Assembly (NCBI RefSeq): GCF_003286915.1
Contig: NZ_QMFY01000013.1
Location: 62,001-126,000, forward strand
Source: Pseudochryseolinea flava
GTDB taxonomy: Bacteria; Bacteroidota; Bacteroidia; Cytophagales; Cyclobacteriaceae
Length of the DNA: 64,000 bases
Direction: 5' to 3'
The notes beneath the pieces were generated by a model. It saw only the letters and a list, made by a program, of their open reading frames with translations. It made no database searches and was not told where the DNA came from. Positions 9,811-27,863 of this stretch are shown piece after piece. Both the position numbers and the translations under genes were made by a program. The first letter of the stretch is position 1; each line of letters opens with the position of its first letter.

Positions 9811-10851
9811 TTATTTGAAAATCAAATACGACGCTACGGTAATGAAAACATTGGCTACGGCCAGTGGAATTAAAATCTTCCACCCTAAGTTCATCAGCTG
9901 ATCGTAGCGGAAACGTGGAATAGTCCAGCGAATCCACATGAAGAAGAAGATGAAAAACGCTACTTTAGCAAACATCACGACTGTACCGATTATCGTGATC
10001 ATGTTTTGATCAAGTCCCAAATCGTTCATGAATGGGAAGTTGTATCCGCCAAAATAGAGTGTCGAAATCACCGCCGATGAAATGAACATGTTGATATATT
10101 CGGCGAACAAGTAGAAACCAAGTTTCATACTGCTGTATTCGGTATGGTATCCACCGACGAGTTCAGTTTCACATTCTGGCAAGTCGAACGGCGTACGGTT
10201 ACATTCAGCGAATGCACAAATTATAAAGATGAGGCATCCGAGAGGATGATAGACTACATTCCAAAAATTCCAGTCACCGCCAGTACCACCGGCTTGTTGT
10301 GCGCTAATCTCCGAAAGACTGAGTGTACCTGTAATAGCGACAAGAGCGATGATAGAAAGGCCCATGGCGATTTCATAGCTAATCATCTGTGCAGAAGCGC
10401 GAATAGCGCCCAACAATGAGAATTTATTATTTGATGCCCAGCCTCCGATCATGATACCATAAACACCGATGGATACAACTGCGAAAACGTACAGTATCCC
10501 GTTGTCAAGTTCTGCAATCTGTAGCGCGTATGTTTCACCACCGATTGTAAGTGTTCCGCCCCAGGGAATCAGAACGCCCGCCATCAATGCTGTCATCATG
10601 GCAATACACGGACCGAGTATGAATAAAAATTTATTCGATACTACTGGAATGATTTCTTCCTTCATGATGAACTTCAATCCGTCTGCAAGTGGCTGAAGAA
10701 TACCGAAAGGGCCCGCGCGGTTAGGACCAATCCGGTCTTGAAGGAACGCTGCCACTTTTCGTTCAGCATATGTCGAATAAGCTGCGACCAACAGCGTGAT
10801 CACGAATACTAACGCAACAAGAATGATTTTAAATGTTAAAAAAGTGATCAT
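9811..10851 (-). CDS. nuoH: NADH-quinone oxidoreductase subunit H
   Basis: Membrane subunit forming part of the quinone chamber at the junction of the two arms, 346 residues, eight or more helices. Recognised from 'YAERKVAAFLQDRIGPNRAG' near the N-terminus, 'QPLADGLKFIMKEEIIP', and the charged loop 'RTPFDLPECETELVGGYHTE', rich in conserved acids. The start overlaps the nuoG stop by 4 bases. Confidence 0.96.
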   Translation of the reverse strand: MITFLTFKIILVALVFVITLLVAAYSTYAERKVAAFLQDRIGPNRAGPFGILQPLADGLKFIMKEEIIPVVSNKFLFILGPCIAMMTALMAGVLIPWGGTLTIGGETYALQIAELDNGILYVFAVVSIGVYGIMIGGWASNNKFSLLGAIRASAQMISYEIAMGLSIIALVAITGTLSLSEISAQQAGGTGGDWNFWNVVYHPLGCLIFIICAFAECNRTPFDLPECETELVGGYHTEYSSMKLGFYLFAEYINMFISSAVISTLYFGGYNFPFMNDLGLDQNMITIIGTVVMFAKVAFFIFFFMWIRWTIPRFRYDQLMNLGWKILIPLAVANVFITVASYLIFK

Positions 10852-11852
10852 GCTTGTGATGTATTAGATTGTGGAAGTTGTTTTCCTTTTTGAAAGGTGA
10901 GCTGCCTGTCGACTTCAAGCTTCAACTTTTGAAGATCAATTTTTTCATAGTGATTCTGTGAGATCACTGAGTTTCTTTCTATATGACGTGGTCCTTCAAC
11001 TACCCAGTCTTTCATGTTCTTGTGATCGTAGCGGCACTCGTTACAGATGAACTCTTTCACTTCGCCGTACTGATCTTTGCGCGCCGACACGCGTAACACT
11101 TCTTCTCCTTTTGTCCAGAGTACTACTTTGCCGGAGCATGTAGGGCAGTCGCGATGGGCATCGAGTGGCTTTGTAAACCAAACGCGGCTTTTGAAACGAA
11201 ACGTTTTATCGGTCAATGCGCCCACAGGACAAACATCGATCATATTTCCAGAGAAGTCATTGTCGACTGCTTTTTCAATATAGGTACTGATTTCAGAGGC
11301 ATCACCGCGGTTTAATACACCGTGCACGCGGTTATTGGTAAGTTGATCTGCAACGAAGGTACAGCGATAACAAAGGATGCATCGTGTCATGTGCAACTTG
11401 ATCTTATCGCCGATATCGATCTTCTCGAATGTTCTGCGCTCTTCTTCATAGCGTGTCTTTGCAGCGCCGTGTTCGTACGCAAGATTTTGAAGATCACATT
11501 CTCCCGCTTGATCACAAATAGGGCAATCAAGAGGGTGGTTAAGTAATAGAAATTCTACTACGCCCTTTCTAGCTTCGAGCACTTCTGCCGACGAAATATT
11601 TTGAACGACCATGCCATCCATCACAGGTGTACGGCAAGAAGCTACGAGCTTAGGCATCGGGCGTGGATCTTTCGCGGATCCTTGTGTTACCTTCACTAAG
11701 CACACGCGGCACTTACCACCTGTTTCTTTCAATGACGAGTAGTAGCACATTGCTGGAGGAACAACATCGCCACCAATTTGTCTGGCAGCATTCAGGATCG
11801 TTGTGCCATCCGCTACTTCTACTTCAATTCCGTCTATCGTTACTTTAGCCAT
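10848..11852 (-). CDS. nuoG: NADH-quinone oxidoreductase subunit G, short form
   Basis: Iron-sulfur subunit of the peripheral arm, only 334 residues against about 780-910 in proteobacteria. The 2Fe-2S domain (C-x11-C-x2-C in 'CYYSSLKETGGKCRVC') covers roughly 1-80. The His/Cys cluster motif is in 'HPLDCPICDQAGEC', and the next 4Fe-4S set in 'CILCYRC' with 'DVCPVGAL'. Two CxxC-type pairs ('DCPTC', 'CNEC') follow, and then the protein ends before the molybdopterin-like domain. Short NuoG is common in Bacteroidota, so this is not a truncation by mutation. A heptamer array ends 8 bases before the start codon. Confidence 0.93.
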   Translation of the reverse strand: MAKVTIDGIEVEVADGTTILNAARQIGGDVVPPAMCYYSSLKETGGKCRVCLVKVTQGSAKDPRPMPKLVASCRTPVMDGMVVQNISSAEVLEARKGVVEFLLLNHPLDCPICDQAGECDLQNLAYEHGAAKTRYEEERRTFEKIDIGDKIKLHMTRCILCYRCTFVADQLTNNRVHGVLNRGDASEISTYIEKAVDNDFSGNMIDVCPVGALTDKTFRFKSRVWFTKPLDAHRDCPTCSGKVVLWTKGEEVLRVSARKDQYGEVKEFICNECRYDHKNMKDWVVEGPRHIERNSVISQNHYEKIDLQKLKLEVDRQLTFQKGKQLPQSNTSQA

Positions 11853-11860
11853 TTTTTGGG

Positions 11861-11890
11861 CGTTAATCGTTATACGTTATACGTTAATCG
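11861..11890. repeat. Heptamer array (CGTTAAT/CGTTATA), left flank of IVS-type gene
   Basis: Four consecutive 7-base units on the plus strand, CGTTAAT, CGTTATA, CGTTATA, CGTTAAT, followed by CG. It lies between the nuoG start and the four-helix-bundle gene. Its unit is the reverse complement of the ATTAACG unit of the array at 12364-12416, so the two arrays are inverted relative to each other. Confidence 0.9.
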
Positions 11891-11914
11891 TAAAATGCAT
11901 TTCAAAGTGCGCTA

Positions 11915-12280
11915 TTACGACGTTTTCGCTTTTTGTAGATAATTAATGAATCCATTCAAAACAGCGATGCAATTCATGATATCCGTCTTCAACTCTTTCA
12001 ATTGAGCTTCGTCAATAAAATTCTCTTCATGGGATACGATCAAATGATCGAGCAATTCATAAAGAGAACCCCGTGCTTGCCTGCAGAACTGAATATATTC
12101 CTGATAATGGAATCTTCCATAGCCCTCGGCAATATTTGCTGTGACCGATCTCGAAGCTCGAATGATCTGATCAACCAATCTATACCTTTCCTCTTTTGGA
12201 AACGTCTGGACTATCTTCAAAATCTTCCTCCGAAGAAGGGCAGATTTTTTCCAGCAGTCCAACTCCTGGAATGTCTCCAT
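11915..12280 (-). CDS. Four-helix-bundle protein (23S rRNA intervening-sequence type)
   Basis: A 121-residue protein of the S23/IVP family. The family core is clear: 'LVDQIIRASRSVTANIAEGYGR' is represented by RASRS (about 42-46) and NIAEGYGR (about 49-56), followed by 'FCRQARGSLYELLDHL'. The fold is four antiparallel helices, related to Avd of diversity-generating retroelements, and the biochemical role is unsettled. Related genes are often found inside 23S rRNA genes of other bacteria, but this one lies between nuoF and nuoG, in the same orientation as the operon and bracketed by inverted heptamer arrays. No reverse transcriptase or rRNA is nearby. Confidence 0.9.
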   Translation of the reverse strand: METFQELDCWKKSALLRRKILKIVQTFPKEERYRLVDQIIRASRSVTANIAEGYGRFHYQEYIQFCRQARGSLYELLDHLIVSHEENFIDEAQLKELKTDIMNCIAVLNGFINYLQKAKTS

Positions 12281-12363
12281 AACACAACGATTTAAGATGG
12301 CTCAAACAACGGCGCTGAAATCAATAAGACCGCAGCATATAATTCAAAATATTTTTTCTTTTT

Positions 12364-12416
12364 TAACGATTAACGATTAACGATTAACGATTAACGATTA
12401 ACGATTAACGATTAAC
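12364..12416. repeat. Heptamer array (TAACGAT)x7, at the nuoF stop
   Basis: Seven perfect TAACGAT units run from 12364 to 12412, with a further partial TAAC to 12416. Reading nuoF on the minus strand, its TAA stop (12412-12414) lies at the very edge of the array. The perfect copies suggest recent expansion or homogenisation. Confidence 0.95.
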
Positions 12417-13770
12417 CTATCACAGCTACACGCTCGGAAACAAAAGGAGTTATCTCAAAATGCTTCGGATTAACAACCTTCTCCGGGTGCTTCACATGGA
12501 ATTCAAACTCTTCGCGGAAGTGGCGGATAGCACTGGCTACGGGCCATGCTGCTGCGTCTCCCAACGGACAGATTGTGTTTCCTTCGATTTTCTTAGCGAC
12601 GTCTACCAATAGGTCGATGTCACTTGCTTGTCCATGGCCGTGTTCGATGCGGTGAAGTACTTTCTCCATCCAGCCAGTACCTTCACGACAGGGACTGCAT
12701 TGTCCACATGATTCGTGATGATAGAAGCGTGCAAAGGTCCAAAGGTTGCGAACGATACAAGCCGTTTCATCATATACAATGAAACCACCAGATCCGAGCA
12801 TTGATCCACTTACAAAACCACCATCGGAGAGTGATTCATAAGTCATCAGCCGCTGCTCACCTTTCGCAGTTTTTAATAAAAGTTCGCCTGGCAGAATTGG
12901 TACGGAAGAACCTCCAGGCACGCATGCCTTAAGTTTTCTTCCTTTCCAGATACCACCGCAGTATTCGTCACTATAAATAAATTCTTCAACTGGAAGCCCT
13001 AATTCGATTTCATAAACACCTGGCTTGTTGATGTGTCCGCTAGCGGAAATCAATTTCGTTCCAGTGCTCTTGCCAATACCGATCTTTGCGTATTCATCGC
13101 CACCCATGTTAACGATAGGAACCACTGCGGCAATGGTCTCAACATTGTTAACAACGGTTGGGCTAGCGTACAAACCAGCAATCGCAGGGAATGGAGGTTT
13201 AAGACGTGGATTACCACGCTTTCCTTCTAATGATTCTAAGAGCGCTGTTTCTTCGCCGCAGATATAGGCACCTGCACCAGGTTGGACATACAGATCCAGG
13301 GAGTAGTCGGTACCGAGAATATTTTTTCCAAGGAAGCCGTTTGCATAAGCTTCGGCAATTGCTTTTTCGAGGATACGAATAACATACATGTACTCGCCGC
13401 GTACGTAGATGTACGAAGTTCGTGCACCCAAGGCAAAACTACTGGTGATCATGCCTTCCACGAGAATGTGCGGAATTTTCTCCATGAGATAGCGATCCTT
13501 AAATGTTCCAGGTTCGCTTTCATCGGCATTGCATACGAGGTAACGCGGTTTTTCGCTCTTACGATCGAGGAAGCTCCACTTCATACCGGCTGGAAAACCG
13601 GCACCACCTCTACCACGAAGTCCAGACTTCTTCACTTCTTCGGTCACAGCATCTGGCGTCATCGTCTTCAATGCCTTCTCGACAGAAGCATAGCCGCCTT
13701 GCTTACGGTAGACCTCGAAGGTTTCAATTCCAGGTACATTGATGTGTTCCAGTAGTAACTTCTTGCCCAT
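12412..13770 (-). CDS. nuoF: NADH-quinone oxidoreductase subunit F (NADH/FMN binding)
   Basis: Flavoprotein that takes electrons from NADH, 452 residues. 'SGLRGRGGAGFPAGMKW' near 49-65 binds NADH, 'GAGAYICGEETALLESLEG' near 167-185 is the FMN-binding segment, and 'ESCGQCSPCREGT' with the downstream 'NTICPLGDAA' provides the N3 4Fe-4S ligands. The stop codon borders the TAACGAT array, and the 40-base gap to nuoE holds a shorter degenerate array. Confidence 0.96.
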   Translation of the reverse strand: MGKKLLLEHINVPGIETFEVYRKQGGYASVEKALKTMTPDAVTEEVKKSGLRGRGGAGFPAGMKWSFLDRKSEKPRYLVCNADESEPGTFKDRYLMEKIPHILVEGMITSSFALGARTSYIYVRGEYMYVIRILEKAIAEAYANGFLGKNILGTDYSLDLYVQPGAGAYICGEETALLESLEGKRGNPRLKPPFPAIAGLYASPTVVNNVETIAAVVPIVNMGGDEYAKIGIGKSTGTKLISASGHINKPGVYEIELGLPVEEFIYSDEYCGGIWKGRKLKACVPGGSSVPILPGELLLKTAKGEQRLMTYESLSDGGFVSGSMLGSGGFIVYDETACIVRNLWTFARFYHHESCGQCSPCREGTGWMEKVLHRIEHGHGQASDIDLLVDVAKKIEGNTICPLGDAAAWPVASAIRHFREEFEFHVKHPEKVVNPKHFEITPFVSERVAVIG

Positions 13771-13772
13771 AG

Positions 13773-13803
13773 GTTCGTTATCGTTATCCGTTATGCGTAA
13801 TGC
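13773..13803. repeat. Degenerate heptamer array in the nuoE-nuoF gap
   Basis: On the plus strand, units of 6-7 bases repeat as CGTTAT, CGTTATC, CGTTATG, CGTAATG. The units resemble those flanking the four-helix-bundle gene, but no gene is inserted here. It fills most of the 40-base spacer between nuoE and nuoF. Confidence 0.75.
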
Positions 13804-17075: not shown

Positions 17076-17586
17076 AGTATTTCAGGCAGTGCAAATTTCA
17101 TTTTTTATTGCTTAAACACCACTAACCAATGGAGAAATTTGCGGTTATTCTTCAAAAAATATTACTTCTAAGCGCGTTCTACTGCATTTTAATGCTGTTC
17201 TAATTTTCAACACAACAAAAGGCGCTTGCTTATTTTTAATCGTTCTAAATGACTCTGGATTACTCGATATTAACACACGTCATAGCGCTGATGTTCCAGC
17301 GGCAGTGAGAAATACTTGGGGTGGGAGGTGGGTATTGGGTATTAGGAATTGGGCGTTCGGTTATTGGGTATTGGGTATTAGTTATTAGGTATTAGGCGTT
17401 CGGTTATTGGGTATTAGGAATTAGGTGTTGCGTATTAGGAAATGCAAATGAATAATGCCTGAGAAGGAGGAAGAGGAGGAGATTGGCCTTGGAAGAAAAG
17501 CCTTGGCAGAAAAAAGATGAACAACGCTTATCGCTTGATGATGACTGATAGCGTTAAGATAAAACTGAGGACAGTAAACTTAGGGC
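17076..17586. other. 511-base gene-free region upstream of nuoA
   Basis: This is the only stretch over 300 bases without a gene. It contains AT-rich DNA next to nuoA (17076-17280), where the nuo promoter must lie although no consensus box is evident. A long heptamer array (17330-17436) follows, then a purine-rich tract around 17461-17490 and the end of the exbD gene at 17587. No conserved ORF or RNA gene is evident. Confidence 0.7.
17330..17436. repeat. Long heptamer array, consensus RGGTATT, about 15 units
   Basis: On the plus strand the units run GGGTATT, GGGTATT, AGGAATT, GGGCGTT, then C, then GGTTATT, GGGTATT, GGGTATT, AGTTATT, AGGTATT, AGGCGTT, then C, then GGTTATT, GGGTATT, AGGAATT, AGGTGTT, GCGTATT. 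A GGCGTTCGGTTATTGGGTATT-like segment occurs twice, 43 bases apart. The period is 7 with two single-C insertions. It lies between the nuo operon and the exbB/exbD pair. Confidence 0.85.
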
Positions 17587-27830: not shown

Positions 27831-27863
27831 TTAACGAATAACCGATAACCGATCACCGATAAC
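27831..27863. repeat. Short heptamer array (ATAACCG) between prfB and MFS gene
   Basis: Units TTAACGA, ATAACCG, ATAACCG, ATCACCG, ATAAC on the plus strand. It fills most of the 48 bases between the prfB stop and the MFS start. The unit is closely related to the ATTAACG units in the nuo operon. Confidence 0.8.

Follow-up and report, generated by a model that had tools for sequence, protein, structure and literature searches.

The stretch analysed here, referred to as the window, comprises 64,000 nucleotides of the Pseudochryseolinea flava genome (contig NZ_QMFY01000013.1, positions 62,001 to 126,000), and its positions 11861–12416 hold a gene of the PF05635 family that lies between nuoF and nuoG and has a 7-bp array on either side, the two arrays being inverted relative to each other and about 4 and 7.7 units long. 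The names nuoF and nuoG-like come from reading the sequence, and both open reading frames (ORFs) are co-directional with the PF05635 gene. The features of the locus are as follows, with the arms named on the gene strand:

10848..11852, minus strand: downstream host gene, nuoG-like; ORF, next after nuoF in 9 of the 10 relatives read
11861..11891, minus strand: 3′ arm; CGTTAATCGTTATACGTTATACGTTAATCGT, four heptamers plus 3 nt
11915..12280, minus strand: four-helix-bundle gene, PF05635 (23S_rRNA_IVP), 121 aa; 114 bits against a cut-off of 33.8
12278..12291, minus strand: motif ATCGTTGTGTTATG; overlaps the start codon of the PF05635 gene
12363..12416, minus strand: 5′ arm; 7.7 perfect copies of TTAACGA (GTTAATC on the gene strand), TRF score 108
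12412..13770, minus strand: upstream host gene nuoF; ORF, best matches in relatives 77–91% identical

The two arms of this unit, hereafter the nuo copy, are inverted over 35 nt with 86% complementarity and are separated by 466 nt, which confirms the initial annotation of a gene within inverted heptamer arrays between nuoF and nuoG. The 5′ arm overlaps the nuoF stop codon, and the 3′ arm ends 9 nt ahead of the nuoG start codon, whose first base is 11852. Read on the gene strand, the 3′ array consists of four units that represent the reverse complement of GTTAATC, two of them as variants, and in our reading the 7.7-unit 5′ arm has expanded from the usual four heptamers. The nuo copy has the terminal inverted repeats that characterize an insertion sequence or MITE; the ancestral spacer is not recognisable beside the insert. 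With up to one mismatch, ACCGTTGTGTTATG is present at three sites genome-wide, all immediately ahead of PF05635 genes, and an upstream GTTGTGT motif is common to 9 of 60 loci. Elsewhere in the window, heptamer arrays lie without an inverted partner nearby at 13775–13803, 17329–17439, and 27832–27863. The first of these is at the nuoE–nuoF junction, in the same operon as the nuo copy, and the unit of the second resembles that of the PF05635 locus L006.

In profile searches, the protein of the nuo copy matched TIGR02436 with 110.6 bits (cut-off 24), and its AlphaFold (AF2) model has four helices with a mean pLDDT of 96.3. Foldseek matched the model to 2GSC (XCC0516; TM 0.91) and 2RLD, and with lower significance to the Avd structure 4DWL (TM 0.79, E 0.04). 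The suggested kinship with Avd is thus upheld by an Avd-like fold; the NCBIfam Avd model gave a weak match (19.5 bits, cut-off 80). To our knowledge, PF05635 has no catalytic domain. Values of dN/dS were 0.02–0.15 in 10 pairs (11 tried, 10 computable), which indicates that the protein is maintained under purifying selection, and an alignment of 17 proteins revealed no conserved stretch. Members of the family were found in 157 of 198 genomes sampled from the window's phylum and in 24 plasmid records, of which 19 bear the name of a cyanobacterium, and searches of 50,697 phage records returned no match. One orthologue in a congener (L027, genome G005) carries an in-frame TAG; the related genes of G004 and G006 are uninterrupted.

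The P. flava genome contains eight PF05635 genes, seven of which are flanked by inverted arrays when inspected by eye, each with a different unit. For scoring, the 5′ flank was compared with the reverse complement of the 3′ flank, with a threshold of 19, the 99th percentile of mismatched loci. This arm test was passed by six of the eight loci; among 681 ORFs of an 800-kb stretch it was passed by four, one of which is a PF05635 gene, leaving 3/680 ordinary ORFs. The comparison supports the proposal that a small coding unit has these arrays as its ends. One of the eight copies has no arrays, which corresponds in part to the outcome that the initial annotation named as refuting it. This copy is L008, located between tRNA genes; the syntenic L036 and L037 (genomes G002 and G003) also lack arrays, and the three loci, from three species of the genus, apparently represent a vertically kept, arm-less form.

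The association of arms and gene extends to other genomes. In the window's phylum, about half of the matches listed were fetched, by score (L001–L037 and 40 regions), and 104 of 107 loci were retained after three were dropped for want of 150-nt flanks. Among these 104 loci, 49 scored as inverted and 13 as direct, and the 5′ arm was G-rich in 45 of the 49; the other 55 were below 19, a shortfall due in part to the strictness of the test and in part to copies that lack arms. A mixed-phyla set was formed by the best 80 of at least 550 confirmed loci, of which 71 entered the arm test and 72 a test for convergent G-rich/C-rich arrays on both sides; locus L398 was left out of the analysis. In this set, 32/71 loci were above 19 and 39 did not reach it. 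Judged by its own mismatch percentile of 27.4, which is high because of shared Lysobacterales sequence, 14/71 passed, compared with 5 direct. Convergent arrays were found at 27/76 and 12/30 loci of the window's phylum and at 37/72 mixed-phyla loci; among the 681 control ORFs, solely the PF05635 gene has them. Because all these loci are top-scoring family matches, some of them orthologous to one another, the counts represent neither a random nor an independent sample. The anatomy recurs in several phyla, with heptamer dialects specific to the locus.

Heptamer arrays are also present apart from these genes. In 800 kb of the P. flava genome, we detected 23 period-7 arrays with at least 13/14 matches, compared with none after a Markov shuffle; periods 4–6 and 8–13 gave 0 to 6 arrays, and period 14, a multiple of 7, gave 21. 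A looser setting returned 54 intergenic arrays in 800 kb, mostly single, with only four close inverted pairs that lack a gene. Counted at 12/14 or more matches, intergenic period-7 arrays numbered 35 in 800 kb of the P. flava genome and 2 in 800 kb of four gene-free genomes of the same phylum. Further counts were 8 in 200 kb of G022, 3 in G033, and 0 in G004, and G023, which has eight PF05635 copies, had none in 200 kb. In P. flava (G000), 18 of 37 gene-less arrays best matched loci of their own genome, clearly above the chance level of 1/8; the same comparison was not discriminating in G022 (2/8).

The initial annotation had proposed comparing the nuoF–nuoG interval among related genomes. Eleven relatives with strong nuoF matches were taken up, 10 of which were readable (L045, without the motif used, was left out), and none of the 10 has a PF05635 gene at this junction. 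Seven have plain spacers of 11–43 bp, four of them in the same genus (G002, 28 bp; G003, 30 bp; G004 and G006, 27 bp each) and three others (G021, 11 bp; G032, 43 bp; G034, 31 bp). The congeners G001 (113 bp) and G005 (121 bp) carry gene-less heptamer arrays of other dialects, and G025 has a different gene. The absence from relatives indicates that the nuo copy is lineage-specific. The word GTTAATCGTTAATC is present 140 times in the P. flava genome, 11 times in G001, twice each in G005 and G022, and not at all in 35 of 38 relatives; its control pattern gave no hits in P. flava. Together, the junctions and these counts indicate that both the nuo insertion and the GTTAATC dialect are nearly private to the species. 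At another site of the genome (L156, G000:C11 360389–360936), a small membrane-protein-like ORF lies within long GTTAATC arrays that are direct, not inverted.

Xanthomonas campestris has GGGAATC arrays as well as the PF05635 protein XCC0516, which predicted GGGAATC arms at a PF05635 gene, and arms of this type indeed flank PF05635 genes in related Xanthomonas and other Lysobacterales, mostly between accB- and accC-like genes, so named from their sequences. Gene-bearing loci end in four heptamers in 22/23 cases at the 5′ side and 21/23 at the 3′ side. From the pattern hits of four genomes, 20 gene-less convergent pairs were selected; here the corresponding arms comprise four units in 18/20 and 14/20 cases (the remaining 3′ arms have 2, 3, 5, 7, 10, and 12 units). 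As the pairs were chosen by a two-unit pattern, the number four was not forced. An inner AAGAGC-like motif is common to the gene-bearing and many of the gene-less elements, and paired gene-less repeats with such ends are dispersed in large numbers in this order. The variable-length ends envisaged at the outset are not supported in that form, since the Lysobacterales end is nearly always four heptamers.

In 99 genomes of that bacterial family (evenly drawn, centre counted), 44 of which have PF05635, the GGGAWTC-type array word GGGAWTCGGGAWTC occurred at least 20 times in 26/44 carriers and 4/55 non-carriers (Fisher p 2.6e-8, kinship ignored); the four non-carriers above the threshold had 23–49 array hits. 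From 14 of the 18 carriers with fewer than 20 hits, 18 loci were read, and all had a higher inverted than direct score, 13 above 19 and 5 at 15 to 18, mostly with other dialects such as AAACCTG, GAAATGG, AAATCTG, and GGGACCC. Counts of GTGAGTR in five Halomonas-type genomes were low (0 to 25), and the reversed-pattern control was uninformative because this word is nearly its own reverse; the counts were given no weight. In Lysobacterales, four-unit ends are thus shared by gene-bearing and gene-less elements, and gene and arrays are statistically linked.

A tree of 107 proteins contains 15 same-site groups, in which both neighbouring genes are shared, and 13 of these require one change only, each group being judged against the other groups so that ungrouped rows may fall inside. 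Such groups look old and vertically inherited, with copies that seldom move. The label of a recent mobile element therefore suits the nuo copy, which is absent in relatives and has a species-concentrated dialect, and is not supported for the class as a whole. The arms change within this stable setting: at one shared site (S1), they agree within each genome and the unit varies between genomes (CAAGCTG, GAGCTNC, CAGGCTN, CTGGCTG), and in two orthologue pairs with 98% identical proteins the length of one arm changes by 16 bp, roughly two units. Among same-site loci, 26/56 scored above 19 with their own partner arm, compared with 37/240 orthologous cross pairs.

At some orthologous junctions, gene-bearing, gene-less, and empty states coexist. 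The fadJ–fadA-like junction has a PF05635 gene in L009, L011, L013, L014, L018, and L068, a gene-less pair of 7–8-bp units in G023, and short spacers in G000 (3 bp), G004 (12 bp), and G024 (51 bp). In a Dokdonella genome, from another phylum, the corresponding junction (L357) carries a gene-less GGGATTC pair, which, together with the gene-bearing fad junctions of the window's phylum, possibly reflects a preference for particular operon junctions across phyla. A thiolase/acyl-CoA dehydrogenase junction shows the same three states: G023, G024, and G007 have the gene, G020 has a gene-less pair, and the spacers of G000, G004, and G017 are plain. Of six loci examined on cyanobacterial plasmids, four are flanked by heptamer-like arms in inverted orientation (scores 15 to 36), one has mainly direct long arrays, and one has none. 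On two of these plasmids, the PF05635 gene lies between cas6 and cas4 (L375, direct arrays) and between cas10 and a cmr3-family gene (L379, inverted), and the presence of heptamer arrays there implies that the CRISPR association may represent insertion rather than function.

These observations can be read in several ways. One alternative, which we consider rather unlikely, is an RNA-level regulon, in which the four-heptamer pairs would be hairpins of operon mRNAs, the protein would bind RNA in trans, as a regulator or a guide for processing, and control its own transcript as well, and the gene-less pairs would be its targets rather than mobile copies. Such a regulon would be consistent with the sense orientation of armed loci with co-directional neighbours (37 sense, 4 antisense), the position of the arms near stop and start codons, the purifying selection on the protein, the pairing of the arms in the predicted minimum-energy RNA fold of the whole unit (z −3.4), and an rRNA relative that is cut out by RNase III (PMC4990558). 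However, the sense bias also follows from a need for a host promoter, and it fits a gene that depends on one. Between the arms of 49 loci, G-U-compatible changes are not in excess (71, compared with 72 non-wobble transitions), which speaks for DNA as the level at which the arms are recognised or copied. In 12 gene-bearing loci of Lysobacterales, the seventh base of the heptamer accounts for 27 of the 41 mismatches between arms, a pattern that looks like core recognition and not like pairing. Selection on the arms for RNA base pairing was rejected on the missing wobble signature.

It is less probable still that the loci are relics, that is, an old domesticated gene with decaying inverted ends that moved long ago, its arrays being kept by slippage and its protein having no present role in spread. 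The single origin of most same-site groups and the 16-bp length differences between nearly identical orthologues would agree with this scenario, but decay accounts poorly for arms that match better within a locus than across orthologues, for a species-specific insertion with a species-concentrated dialect, and for four-unit ends in gene-bearing and gene-less elements alike. Ordinary slippage, which would create 7-bp arrays in any spacer and place them beside PF05635 genes by accident, has in its favour the many single arrays of the P. flava genome and the polymerase slippage at 7 nt that has been proposed (PMC4679880, PMC4692102), yet it is largely refuted by the control ORFs, the convergent orientation, the scarcity of arrays in gene-free genomes, and the contrast between carriers and non-carriers, and we give it very little credence. 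A non-autonomous retroelement, whose Avd-like protein would recruit a host reverse transcriptase, is hardly credible despite the Avd fold match and the weak Avd model score, since of the 17 genomes with at least three gene copies, a set that includes P. flava, 10 have no RVT_1 match in their draft assemblies, which largely refutes such dependence as a general rule.

We therefore favour, with a probability of roughly 60%, the reading that the nuo unit belongs to a family of bacterial elements that consists of a PF05635 gene and inverted ends of typically four convergent 7-bp units, is organized like REPIN–RAYT systems, and includes the 23S intervening sequence. The recurrence of the design in distant bacteria, in some of them together with scattered gene-less copies, suggests that a family of element-like inserts has been overlooked. 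Its members have the G-rich strand of the arms pointing inward and lie between two operon genes, after the stop codon of the first and ahead of the start codon of the second, usually in sense orientation. We infer that PF05635 elements move and that their protein binds the ends, and likewise where the elements begin and end. An Avd-like pentameric barrel, as the modelled fold suggests, could bind the nucleic acid of the four-heptamer ends, or of the hairpin that they form, and join them. Enzymes of replication or repair, or else a recombinase of the host, would subsequently carry copies of the ends to new junctions and also homogenize the units and both arms. By analogy, the non-catalytic four-helix-bundle protein would replace RAYT in a REPIN–RAYT-like system, and the 23S rRNA intervening sequence would be a PF05635 element that settled in rRNA. 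At the nuo copy, one arm would have grown from four to nearly eight units, and GTTAATC would also have spread to many sites in the species.

In regard to the enzymes that could take part, reverse transcriptase is seemingly not needed, as judged from the many-copy genomes that lack RVT_1, and no transposase was found linked to a PF05635 element. Matches to Y1 transposases were present in 16/17 genomes with at least three PF05635 copies, but also in 14/22 with 0 to 2 copies, so a dependence on Y1 finds no decisive backing. One genome, G019, has 28 Y1 transposase matches with mostly identical scores, probably a recent IS200-type expansion. A wider proposal is tentative, and we put it at a little under even odds: a bacteria-wide, transposase-less class whose inverted ends of four heptamers are matched to a non-catalytic four-helix-bundle protein, each paralogue having its own dialect. 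If true, it would unify 23S intervening sequences, the heptamer arrays that Xanthomonas and Cyanobacteria carry, and gene-less operon-junction hairpins, and would imply an unfamiliar way of moving or rewriting DNA ends in seven-base steps. The four-heptamer end, the gene-less copies, and the location at operon junctions suggest a testable role for the common PF05635 family and offer one explanation for several separately reported repeat families. They could also account for PF05635 genes beside unrelated operons, including the CRISPR genes on two cyanobacterial plasmids.

Intervening sequences in rRNA have been studied since about 1990. Those of 23S rRNA (S23p; Coxiella, Leptospira, and others) combine a PF05635 protein with complementary termini, as does the nuo copy, which, however, lies between protein genes and not inside rRNA. 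In Coxiella, the insert is removed by RNase III and has a 28-bp terminal stem, and its S23p ORF is preceded by tandem GACAGAT heptamers, three or two depending on the strain, and one GACAGAA (PMC4990558). This published insert strengthens the link to 23S intervening sequences made in the initial annotation, and it probably represents the same design lodged in rRNA, with the heptamers presumably lying in the stem. The Coxiella protein appears decayed in that account (PMC4990558), in contrast to the conserved proteins of the family described here, which, unlike the 23S intervening sequences, also has dispersed gene-less copies.

Among reported heptamer repeats, X. campestris GGGAATC forms 186 arrays and 70 convergent pairs, mostly of four units and mostly intergenic, and is described alongside the G-rich GGGGAYT heptamers of Nostoc, both being treated as G-quadruplex repeats; the term "S23" is absent from its main text (PMC4692102). 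In related Xanthomonas species, the same unit also stands at both ends of a PF05635 gene. The TAACTGA arrays of Beggiatoaceae are intergenic, patchily distributed in Cyanobacteria and Bacteroidetes, and missing in some close relatives, but differ from the family described here in being mostly direct and near start codons (PMC4679880). Among the open-licence PMC papers listed, no link between PF05635 and heptamer arrays was evident beyond the Coxiella case. Avd of diversity-generating retroelements (DGRs) resembles the modelled fold of the nuo copy protein, which falls short of the Avd model cut-off, and the two RVT_1 matches of the genome are on contigs other than the window's.

A further parallel in organization is REPIN–RAYT, in which one protein gene, a Y1 HUH transposase, is flanked by repeats and largely vertically inherited, and many gene-less paired repeats lie elsewhere. 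The gene of the nuo copy matches PF05635 only, and the three Y1 matches of the genome are on other contigs. The elements of the Lysobacterales share with REPIN–RAYT a gene flanked by repeats and dispersed gene-less pairs, and differ in that PF05635 takes the place of the Y1 HUH transposase and the ends consist of four heptamers.
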